A stretch of 64,000 nt of DNA from Chryseobacterium salivictor (GTDB taxonomy: Bacteria; Bacteroidota; Bacteroidia; Flavobacteriales; Weeksellaceae). The stretch covers positions 1,302,001 to 1,366,000 of the forward strand of contig NZ_CP037954.1 in the NCBI RefSeq assembly GCF_004359195.1, written 5' to 3'. The position numbers were made by a program, and so were the translations under genes. A model generated the notes under the pieces. It was given only the letters and a program-made list of their open reading frames with translations. It was not told the origin of the DNA and made no database searches. Below, one piece after another: positions 9,353 through 47,734 of this stretch (positions are counted from its first letter, which is position 1; each line of letters opens with the position of its first letter).

Positions 9353-9409
9353 ATTTTAAATTTTATATCGACATTAAAATTTAAAATCTAAAATTTAAAA
9401 TTTCTAAAA

Positions 9410-45234: not shown

Positions 45235-46101
45235 TTAATAACCGAAAACCTCATTCATACTAAAGGTTTGGTCTAAGCGAATTCCCTTTTCGGTCATTTT
45301 CAGACTCGCCAGTTCGTGGTGTGCATCGTGTTCAAAAAACAACAGGTAATCGTTATCTACGCACTGTTTCAAAAACTTTCCCTTTTCTTCCATGGTCAAA
45401 AGTGGACGCGTATCATAACCCATCACATAAACCTGTGGAATGTGGCCCGCAGTAGGAATTAAATCTGCTGCAAAAACAATCGTTTTTTCCTGATACTGAA
45501 TCACAGGAAGCATTTGCTTTTCGGTATGTCCATCCACAAAAATAACATCCATCTTCAAATCCGGGGCAAAACCATAATTTCCACTTTTCGGTGTTGGCAG
45601 AAAATTCAACTGCCCGCTTTCCTGCATCGGCAGAATGTTTTCCTTCAGAAAACTGGCCTTTTCTCTTGGGTTAGGTTCGGTTGCCCATTTCCAATGGTTT
45701 TCATTCGTCCAGAAATGGGCGTTTTTAAAAGCCGGTCTGTAACCGCTGCGGTCGTCATTCCACTCGATGGCGCCGCCGCAATGATCGAAATGAAGGTGCG
45801 TCAAGAAAACATCTGTAATGTCTTCTTTTACGAAACCATATTTTTTAAGATTTTTATCCAATGTATCGTCGCCATATAAGGAATAATGTCCAAAGAATTT
45901 CTCGTCCTGTTTGTTGCCTAAACCACAATCGATGAGGATCAGTTTTTTACCGTCTTCCACCAAAAGCGAGCGGGTTCCCAGTTCGATCAAATTATTTTCA
46001 TCGGCCGGATTCGTTCTTTGCCAAAGGGTTTTCGGCACGATACCAAACATCGCACCACCATCTAATTTAAATTTTCCGCACTGTATGGGATAGAGTTTCA
46101 T
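45235..46101 (-). CDS. MBL-fold metallo-hydrolase
   Basis: A 288-residue cytoplasmic hydrolase of the metallo-beta-lactamase superfamily. The metal motif is THLHFDHCGG (HxHxDH type), with further ligands in VDGHTEKQML (His) and FAADLIPTAGH (Asp) and a C-terminal His in FFEHDAHHE. The long insertion rich in Trp/Asn (FWTNENHWKWA) is typical of AHL-lactonase-like and related members. Substrate unknown; quorum-quenching activity would be a guess. No signal peptide. Confidence 0.88.
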   Translation of the reverse strand: MKLYPIQCGKFKLDGGAMFGIVPKTLWQRTNPADENNLIELGTRSLLVEDGKKLILIDCGLGNKQDEKFFGHYSLYGDDTLDKNLKKYGFVKEDITDVFLTHLHFDHCGGAIEWNDDRSGYRPAFKNAHFWTNENHWKWATEPNPREKASFLKENILPMQESGQLNFLPTPKSGNYGFAPDLKMDVIFVDGHTEKQMLPVIQYQEKTIVFAADLIPTAGHIPQVYVMGYDTRPLLTMEEKGKFLKQCVDNDYLLFFEHDAHHELASLKMTEKGIRLDQTFSMNEVFGY

Positions 46102-46130
46102 AAAATTTTAATTTTTATCTTGATATATTT

Positions 46131-46654
46131 TTAACGCAAAGATCCGCAAAGACTTTTTTACTTGCACATCACTTTTTAAGAACGCAAAGGCGTTTCACTC
46201 AGCAAAGTAGTAAATCTTTTACAAATTATTTGCTATTCTTTTAACGCCGTCTTTAAATAATAAAGAGTGAAAATTCAACAGCATACCTAATTTAAATCCT
46301 GTAATTCTTAAATAGTTTAAAGTTGATAGGTATGATAAGTAATAATTTCAGGAACTGCCTTAATCTCTATTATTACTTTATCTTCAATTGAAATATCTTT
46401 TTGCTTTTCAACTTTCAAACCGTTCCTCTTTAATTCATAAACTAAACATTCTTCATATACCGCTTCATAAAGACCAATTCCAACCTTACGATGAATTTTC
46501 AAACCCGACTCAAATACTACTTTTGAAATTTCATTTTCATTCATATTTTAATCATTTCATTTTACGACATTTATTCAAGCCTTCGCTAAGTGAAACGCCT
46601 TTGCGTTCGAATAATAAGTAATACGGTTTCATCTCTTTGCGTCTTTTGCGTTAA
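46131..46654. repeat. Nested inverted repeats enclosing a GxxExxY pseudogene
   Basis: Outer arms: TTAACGCAAAGATCCGCAAAG on the left (from 46131) and the inverse of a very similar sequence on the right (46634-46654). Inner arms: AACGCAAAGGCGTTTCACT at 46181-46199 and its exact reverse complement at 46589-46607. The arms enclose one broken GxxExxY gene. No transposase is present. The structure looks like a repeat-bounded cassette or non-autonomous element. Confidence 0.7.
46219..46544 (-). pseudogene. GxxExxY family gene, broken
   Basis: The frame from 46544 starts with the family signature (VGIGLYEAVYEECLVYEL, the GxxExxY motif) and reads to EDKVIIEIKAVPEIITYHTY before a TAA at 46317-46319. 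In the next frame the family C-terminus continues: LRITGFKLGMLLNFHSLLFK, then DGVKRIANNL and a stop at 46219. One missing T in the TTTAAA context at about 46316-46321 explains the shift. In addition, about 25 residues that normally lie between VEKQK and EDKV are absent, an internal deletion. The family is small, of unknown function, and often present in several copies in Bacteroidota. Confidence 0.8.
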
Positions 46655-46688
46655 AGATATTCTCTCACTTGAAGCGAGATCGTTGACA

Positions 46689-47711
46689 TTAAAAAAGTTC
46701 ATCAGGTCTTCTCGGCACCGAAATATTCAAATGCTTATACGCTTTTTCCGTTACTTCCCGTCCTCTCGGAGTTCGGATAATAAAACCTTCCTGAATCAAA
46801 AACGGTTCATAAACCTCTTCCAAAGTTTCCGGATTTTCGCCAATTGAAGTTGCCAATGCAGAAATCCCCACGGGTTTCCCACGGAAATTTTCAATCATCA
46901 CGCGCATAATTCTATTGTCCATATCATCGAGTCCGAATTCATCAACATTTAAAGAATTTAATGCAAATTTCGTAATTTCAATTTCGATTTCGCCATTTCC
47001 TTTAATTTCTGCAAAATCCCGAACTCTCCGCAAAAGTGCATTTGCAATTCTGGGAGTGCCACGACTTCTTCTCGCAATTTCCAAAGCAGCATCTTCGTAG
47101 ATTTTAACATCTAAAACCCGTGCACTTCTTTCGATAATCATCGATAAAAGTTCAATCGTATAATATTCTAACCGGGACTGGATTCCGAATCTTGCGAGCA
47201 TCGGTTTGGTCAGCATTCCGCTTCTGGTGGTTGCTCCAACCAACGTAAAAGGATTCAAACCGATCTGCACACTTCTGGCATTCGGACCGCTTTCCAGCAT
47301 GATGTCGATTTTATAATCTTCCATCGCCGAATACAAATACTCTTCTACAATCGGGGAAAGCCGGTGGATTTCATCGATGAATAAAACATCATTTTCTTCC
47401 AGATTGGTTAAAAGTCCGGCCAAACTTCCTGGCTTATCCAAGACCGGACCCGAAGTGATTTTACAGCCCACTCCCAATTCATTCGCAATAATATGGGCTA
47501 AAGTCGTTTTCCCCAATCCCGGCGGACCGTGTAAAAGAACGTGATCCAGCGCACCGCCACGGTTTTTTGCCGCTGCAACAAAAACTTCAAGATTATCCAG
47601 AGTCTTGCGCTGTCCGGCAAAATCCCGAAAACTCTGCGGACGGATTTTCTCTTCTAAAATTAATTCATCCTCGGAGAAATTCTCTTGATCGGGATGCAAA
47701 AAATCGGGCAT
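46689..47711 (-). CDS. ruvB: Holliday junction branch migration DNA helicase RuvB
   Basis: AAA+ motor that drives branch migration with RuvA. 340 residues from the ATG at 47711 ([12 protein letters not shown]). Walker A is GPPGLGKTT, Walker [10 protein letters not shown], sensor 1 GATTRSG, arginine finger region [13 protein letters not shown], and a winged-helix C-terminus ends [20 protein letters not shown]. An in-frame TTG at 47729 overlaps the -7 box and is rejected. It is the first gene of a leftward unit next to the repeat-bounded GxxExxY pseudogene. Confidence 0.97.
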
Positions 47712-47726
47712 TTTTATAAATTTCTT

Positions 47727-47734
47727 CAAAGATA
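47727..47734 (-). promoter_or_regulatory. -7 promoter box of ruvB
   Basis: On the minus strand TATCTTTG, a perfect box, 15 nt upstream of the ATG at 47711. Its final TTG is in frame with ruvB. Confidence 0.7.

Follow-up and report, generated by a model that had tools for sequence, protein, structure and literature searches.

A decayed GxxExxY gene (PF13366) flanked by two arms of about 80 nt in inverted orientation occupies positions 46125-46660 of the window, the 64,000-nucleotide stretch of Chryseobacterium salivictor DNA analysed here, and it is probably a broken representative of an extensive family of selfish cassettes whose nuclease would recognise its own arrays of short words, much as in a REPtron. 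The cassettes have a common anatomy: a GxxExxY gene lies between inverted arms with about 2-4 words C-R-C-N-N-A-G/T each, mostly about 10 bp apart and therefore on one face of the helix. The architecture is general at the level of phyla, the two arms of an element agree in element-specific letters, and pieces of arms also occur without a gene. Units are inserted in sense between co-directional genes, are present or absent at orthologous sites, include decayed copies, and in one case have been copied within a genome.

The window gene lies on the minus strand, as do the metallo-beta-lactamase (MBL)-fold gene (45235-46101, minus) and ruvB (46689-47729, minus) on its two sides. The insertion interval, from the start of the MBL-fold gene to the stop of ruvB, spans 46101-46689; it measures only about 74-80 bp in three relatives with an empty site. 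The 3'-side arm (46125-46207, plus strand) carries CGCAAAG at 46135, 46145 and 46183 and AGCAAAG at 46201, and is made up of an outer block, AACGCAAAG-atc-CGCAAAG, and an inner block, GAACGCAAAGGCGTTTCACTCAGCAAAG. The 5'-side arm (46581-46660, minus strand) carries AGCGAAG at 46581-46587, CGCAAAG at 46599-46605 and 46635-46641, and a further minus-strand word, CGCAAAAG, at 46643-46650. Each arm thus has CGCAAAG-type words in its outer and its inner block, and both contain the 5-bp stem AACGC/GCGTT. The nested arrangement of the original prediction was recovered: the inner arms (46180-46207 and 46581-46608) are 28 nt long and 93% complementary, and the outer arms (46125-46140 and 46645-46660) are 16 nt long and 94% complementary. 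The perfect inner match, given earlier as 19 bp, comprises the first 20 nt of the inner arms, GAACGCAAAGGCGTTTCACT. Since the words of the window arms come in pairs and never three or more in a row 8-13 nt apart, a strict array scan omits them. A profile scan of the five neighbouring ORFs (CoaE, the metallo-beta-lactamase-fold protein, RuvB, an MFS transporter and a multicopper-oxidase-type protein) found no transposase, in agreement with the earlier statement.

The decayed gene itself (PF13366 / TIGR04256; 46219-46544, minus) has its start codon at 46544 and remains open for 75 codons, to 46317; its former stop is at 46219-46221 (minus). The 75-residue ORF (46317-46544, minus) matches PF13366 at profile positions 2-51 with 59.2 bits (cut-off 22), and the rest of the gene is out of frame. 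Alignment with five relatives at the same site (G006, G009, G029, G033 and G007) showed that the reported one-base frameshift is real and placed it at 46317-46322 (minus). The internal deletion, originally estimated at about 25 residues, is smaller: 51 nt are missing in frame, or 17 residues, with the junction at 46383-46392 (minus), within the repeat AATTGAA. The lost segment includes the conserved Asp of the PD-(D/E)XK active site, which the aligned relatives retain; without it the site is incomplete in the window copy. By eye, the relatives bear a direct repeat at both ends of this segment, so a deletion between short repeats, as first suggested, would fit the loss; the repeat is of the AATTGAA(T/G)AT type, not GATATT.

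Six further, intact GxxExxY genes are found in the same genome (3.14 Mb, one contig), two of them with 127.9 and 136.5 bits against the GxxExxY family profile (cut-off 35). All six are flanked by inverted repeats, with letters unlike those of the window arms (for example AACCACAAAAGTCACAAAAG, ACCGCAAAAGAGACAAAAG, TGCCACGAATTCACTAATT and AACCATTAAGATTTAATTAAG); the expectation that other copies carry the same arms therefore holds for the architecture and not for the letters. When 450-nt flanks were compared, 0-2 of 35 mismatched pairs scored as high as the true pair of each copy. Within the order, distribution of the family is patchy, with 0 to 11 matches per genome, a number of them broken, and 39 of 60 genomes (this one included) containing at least one. 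The 135 matches yielded 94 loci for analysis, the remainder being fragments, pieces of one gene or matches that were not fetched; one locus at a contig end (L049) was left out of the flank tests. True flanks beat 95% of mismatched pairs at 74 of the 94 genus and order loci and 99% at 56, while 20 fail at p<=0.05. Single-linkage clustering on flank similarity groups the loci into 38 locations, a count that is approximate because L144 and L145, whose flanks hold further arm copies, were wrongly merged, as perhaps were L057 and L123.

Inverted repeats could in principle arise by chance, as a spurious product of A+T-rich intergenic DNA, and a score of 26 is indeed attained by 4 of 50 control ORFs from the window. 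A score of at least 30 is reached by 59 of the 94 GxxExxY loci but by none of these 50 controls and by only 2 of 147 neighbouring ORFs, the respective mean scores being 35.5, 19.2 and 18.8. Tests with mismatched flanks, shuffled sequences and fresh loci agree, and we give chance next to no credence.

The same layout was found far outside the order. From at least 592 relatives, a scan with the pattern G[PV]GLLESAY kept 80 loci. Judged by record titles, most are from Bacteroidota, and the rest include Cyanobacteria, Proteobacteria, Acidobacteriota, Chloroflexota, Planctomycetota and other groups; five loci were without 120-nt flanks. In the mismatched-pair test 23 of the 75 usable loci pass at 0.05 and 52 fail, a control that is conservative across phyla because many loci share CACAGAG or CGCAAAG. 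Of 76 loci, 46 have the word C[AG]CN[AG]AG facing inward twice or more at each end, compared with 0.05 expected and with 2 of 80 control ORFs from the same loci. Inward words number 2.61 and 2.75 per flank on average, compared with 0.16 and 0.14 after shuffling; the enrichment extends, less strongly, to outward words (1.33 and 1.11 versus 0.11 and 0.13). Words keep close to the gene (285 of 421 within 60 nt), and the distance between word starts has its mode at 10 nt (107 cases, with 50 at 9 and 27 at 11). The density of arrays with at least three words rises 15.7-fold within 120 nt of a GxxExxY gene, and 74 of 160 word arrays in these loci lie away from it. For replication, we searched 13 of the cross-phylum genomes for further GxxExxY copies; 30 of 50 matches became loci, 13 of them recognised as the seeds from their coordinates, and the motif was not found in 2 of the remaining 17. 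Among the 15 fresh loci, 12 reach an inverted-repeat score of at least 26, as against 12 of 173 control ORFs, and in 9 of the 15 each end has two words; examples of their arms are CCGCCAAGACGCCAAGGCCGCCAAG (L341) and CACGCAAAGGCGCTAAGACGCAAAG (L342). Elements whose words are of the CACAGATT, CGAATT or TTAAG type escape the generic word expression, and in the genus and order set it finds both ends at no more than 18 of the 94 loci and 7 of the 38 locations, far below the inverted-repeat test. The original suggestion that GxxExxY genes occur as repeat-bounded cassettes thus has strong support, and it holds generally across phyla.

Comparison of the two arms within an element indicates that words are better conserved than spacers: arm-to-arm identity is 88% in words (593/674) and 65% in spacers (259/398) over 28 elements, 8 of 36 having been dropped for arm-length mismatch. 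At the variable word positions 2, 4, 5 and 7, the arms of the 42 elements that have three or more words in each arm agree in 0.761 of comparisons, versus 0.580 (sd 0.018) for permuted partners, and none of 2000 permutations was as high; local base composition may account for part of this agreement. When arms were swapped between elements at shared locations, own arms matched better in 116 of 174 pairs, worse in 45 and equally in 13 (by cluster, 9 of 14 positive, 4 negative and 1 tied), where the two doubtful mergers named above contribute one pair each. Across the 38 locations, arm 5-mer content did not correlate with protein identity (Mantel r=0.03, p=0.30), which counts against a simple code.

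A spacing of about 10 nt and words conserved above their spacers suggest protein binding, and they would also make sense if the arrays were operators or other binding sites, for GxxExxY or for another DNA-binding protein, in units that are not mobile. Arms at both ends of the gene would then serve autoregulation and solo arms would be further sites of the regulon; that many sites look inherited in place agrees with this. We consider such an explanation unlikely, since an autoregulator needs its site on the 5' side only, whereas the arms are mirrored at both ends in the sampled phyla, and since the unit that was copied within a genome is delimited by its arms and relatives have empty sites.

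The orientation of the genes is strongly biased. Both neighbours lie on the strand of the gene at 35 of 38 genus and order locations, compared with 29 of 51 window ORFs (p=2e-6), at 28 of 30 four-helix-bundle loci described below, and at 43 of 68 cross-phylum loci for which both neighbours were called. This sense, co-directional bias may mean that copies survive where genes of an operon meet and are transcribed through, or that a step at the RNA level is involved. For the latter, the arms would base-pair within the transcript of the operon, with processing of the unit like that of a 23S rRNA intervening sequence; in Coxiella, tandem heptamers stand ahead of the S23p ORF of such a sequence, which RNase III excises, as described in PMC4990558. 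Processing of this kind is decidedly improbable for the units studied here. Differences between arms show no excess of G-U-compatible changes at GxxExxY loci (123 versus 131), and spacers are less complementary than words. At the four-helix-bundle loci (L167-L196) the differences are biased against G-U compatibility (20 versus 59), the reverse of what RNA pairing predicts.

Presence and absence of the units could be followed at two sites. In the ruvB survey, 17 MBL-ruvB intervals were read from 30 fetched loci (36 genomes): six hold GxxExxY, three a four-helix-bundle gene (G030, G013, G031), two a short filler and three another ORF, and three are empty (G017, G018, G021), so that the empty sites looked for between the MBL-fold gene and ruvB do exist. 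A hand count found GxxExxY within about 2 kb of ruvB in 12 of 36 genus genomes, and the window copy looks largely inherited in place; movement would therefore be rare. The second site is the place where a dehydratase gene adjoins a nucleotidyltransferase gene (Pfam assignments); we take the two to be rfbB and rfbA. It contains GxxExxY in G000 and a PF05635 gene within arms of another word in G026, a close relative with an identical 180-nt left probe, and it is empty in G033 and G006, where a single base separates the stop from the start. Inspection by eye revealed no target-site duplication at this junction, at which the empty relatives match the probe at only 83% and 75%.

In one genome (G028), GxxExxY units at 944.7 kb and 2120.0 kb, 1.2 Mb from each other, are 84.6% identical over 929 nt, with 121 of 125 residues identical. 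As read from the alignment, DNA homology is limited to the gene and its arms, and the flanks contain additional arm copies. All remaining pairs from different locations stay at or below 73.5% DNA identity, and movement is for this reason, too, judged to be rare. Direct evidence for movement is limited to this one intragenomic copy and to presence or absence at the two sites. Plasmids were ruled out as the main route of spread, because GxxExxY was carried by only 7 of 72,556 plasmid records, all called non-mobilizable. At the L011 site, G026 retains arm sequence on both sides and has lost most of the gene.

Arms without a gene are common in the genus. The inner-arm 21-mer (up to two mismatches) occurs 15 times in the C. 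salivictor genome, compared with 0 for the reversed pattern; two of these occurrences are in the window element and 13 elsewhere, none of the latter within 19 kb of an intact copy. It is present in 28 of 36 genus genomes and is more abundant in those with the ruvB element (mean 10.6 versus 3.6); after subtraction of the element's own two, the excess has p=0.0026, a value uncorrected for kinship and based on counts by ruvB state that were entered by hand. Some of the gene-less arms are carried inside a distinct MITE, which has ends of its own (L008, L023, L306) and may have spread them.

Several other repeats were noticed in the course of this work. The MITE is about 180 bp long, contains no gene, has ATGTATATCCGT / ACGGATATACAT-type ends and a CGCAAAG arm inside, and was seen at L008 1470-1640 (1.987 Mb in the C. 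salivictor genome), L002/L024, L023, L306, L308 and L310; it is present in G000 and missing at the same place in G026 (L008/L286). Many solo arms form clusters, interleaved with other repeated units, in L314 (1617.5-1621.5 kb of the C. salivictor genome), where the cluster starts beside a serine hydroxymethyltransferase gene (PF00464), and in L311 (2939.3-2943.3 kb of G026). A further filler, of the type CCGCCTTCCACTCCCGCT...AGCTCCGTTCAAGTCGGG, occupies sites that contain cassettes in other genomes, in the MBL-ruvB interval of G026 (L079) and G023 (L083) and at the L011 site of G033 (L296) and G006 (L282). In the window, the 7-mer TTAAAAT is repeated in tandem 4.3 times at 9374-9403.

Genes for four-helix-bundle proteins (PF05635) form a parallel class. 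They are found in 36 of 36 genus genomes, with 1 to 11 matches per genome, and have mirrored arms of tandem 7-8-mers, for example TTAGAAGTTAGA or GTGAACTTGTGAA; 16 of 30 loci pass the mismatched-pair test at 0.05. The two sites described above alternate between GxxExxY and four-helix-bundle genes, the latter with arms of another word class. A nuclease is thus not needed for the layout, because these non-nuclease genes share it with other words. Two unrelated gene families with the same layout, and even the same insertion sites, together with a separate MITE that carries a CGCAAAG arm between its own ends, could mean that the arms are MITE-like ends moved in trans by another enzyme, with the GxxExxY or four-helix-bundle gene as mere cargo. 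The word class follows the gene family, however: CRCNNAK words stand at both ends of 15 of 38, 43 of 77 and 12 of 15 loci in the three GxxExxY sets (70 of 130) and of 0 of 30 four-helix-bundle loci. The constant element across phyla is the GxxExxY protein, and a passenger role for it is, in our estimate, rather doubtful.

What is predicted for this protein agrees with the preferred reading, that of a nuclease recognising its own arrays. An AlphaFold2 model of a Nostoc protein (L274), built with 46 relatives, has a pLDDT of 95.1, and its nearest chain is SSO0001 (4ic1; Z 9.9, rmsd 3.1, 99 residues aligned), which we take to be a Cas4, the entry title saying only SSO0001. Other PD-(D/E)XK nucleases follow at Z of 8.2 or less, and other Cas4 chains have Z of 5.8-6.7. 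Asp67, Lys79, Gln91 and Tyr95 are invariant in the 47 sequences and Glu77 is nearly so; the model predicts a Cas4-like PD-(D/E)XK fold, and the conserved D, E-x-K and Q are shared with Cas4 and RecB-like nucleases. Foldseek alone gave no match at E<=0.001 (best E-value 6.6e-3), the Pfam match is PDDEXK_3 with Cas_Cas4 under its cut-off (16.3 versus 22.7 bits), no solved relative was found by sequence at E<=1, and a defence library returned only weak Cas4-like and PDC matches. No role has been assigned to GxxExxY in the sources searched; in the open-access literature, the name occurs in two papers and PF13366 in one.

From these patterns we infer how recognition and movement might work. The Cas4-like PD-(D/E)XK protein would bind, at either end of the cassette, the word arrays that belong to it; the bound protein would join the two ends and cut the DNA there, and cutting would let host repair spread the cassette, or the arms alone. 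New copies would survive mainly at gene junctions within operons, in sense, and would then be inherited in place. Cassettes would subsequently decay, the window copy by the short-repeat deletion that removed its catalytic Asp. Somewhat short of an even chance, in our view, is a broader proposal that joins both gene families. GxxExxY with its arms would be an undescribed class of mobile element, in which a Cas4-like nuclease reads arrays of about 7-bp words, one helical turn apart, element-specific and mirrored at both ends, and also spreads arrays alone; four-helix-bundle (S23p/IVP) genes would represent another branch of this strategy, with words of their own, and would bring 23S rRNA intervening sequences and heptamer-type dispersed repeats into a single kind of system.

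Cassettes of the GxxExxY kind are widespread and apparently undescribed: a search of the open-access literature, with subscription journals outside its range, found no description of arms at GxxExxY genes. Linking this often multi-copy gene to mirrored word arrays would explain its co-occurrence and scatter with dispersed repeats. The gene and its arms offer a directly testable protein-DNA pair in many genomes, and orthologous elements with differing letters are natural specificity variants. The parallel class also suggests that S23p-bearing intervening sequences, an old puzzle, belong to a wider class of operon-dwelling cassettes.

Several known systems share parts of this picture. Like MITEs and insertion sequences, the cassettes have inverted ends, gene-less dispersed forms and presence or absence between relatives; unlike them, they end in word arrays whose letters differ between elements, and the five scanned window neighbours include no transposase. 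Cyanobacterial STRR or tandem heptamer repeats are short tandem words dispersed in intergenic DNA, including that of Nostoc; we know of no link between them and GxxExxY genes, and three Nostoc loci (L274, L269, L335) have word arrays at GxxExxY genes. The 23S rRNA intervening sequences likewise combine a small ORF with inverted repeats, and the four-helix-bundle genes of the genus have inverted arms of tandem 7-8-mers and occupy two of the sites that GxxExxY uses. The window locus and its relatives, in contrast, lie between protein-coding ORFs and not in rRNA (judged, for loci other than that of the window, from the ORFs called beside them), GxxExxY is unrelated to the S23p / four-helix-bundle ORF and uses another word class, and the wobble test gives no sign of RNA pairing at its arms. 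The REPtron is a further comparison: according to PMC6006769, a RAYT (TnpA-REP) gene is flanked by REP repeats, further REPs are dispersed, distribution is patchy and gene positions are mostly stable. GxxExxY cassettes similarly combine a small enzyme gene, flanking repeats, the same repeats scattered without the gene, patchiness and mostly stable positions. They differ in having a Cas4-like PD-(D/E)XK enzyme (predicted) rather than an HUH/Y1 enzyme, in arms that appear to be mainly arrays of words spaced about 10 nt rather than palindromes, and in a unit that is itself present, absent or copied. Seven single arms folded as DNA gave z values from -1.57 to +0.73, none below -2, and both window arms have the 5-bp stem given above. 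Because the HUH enzyme that defines the REPtron family is absent, we do not class them as REPtrons; we count them among the repeat-propagating elements, possibly as a class of their own.
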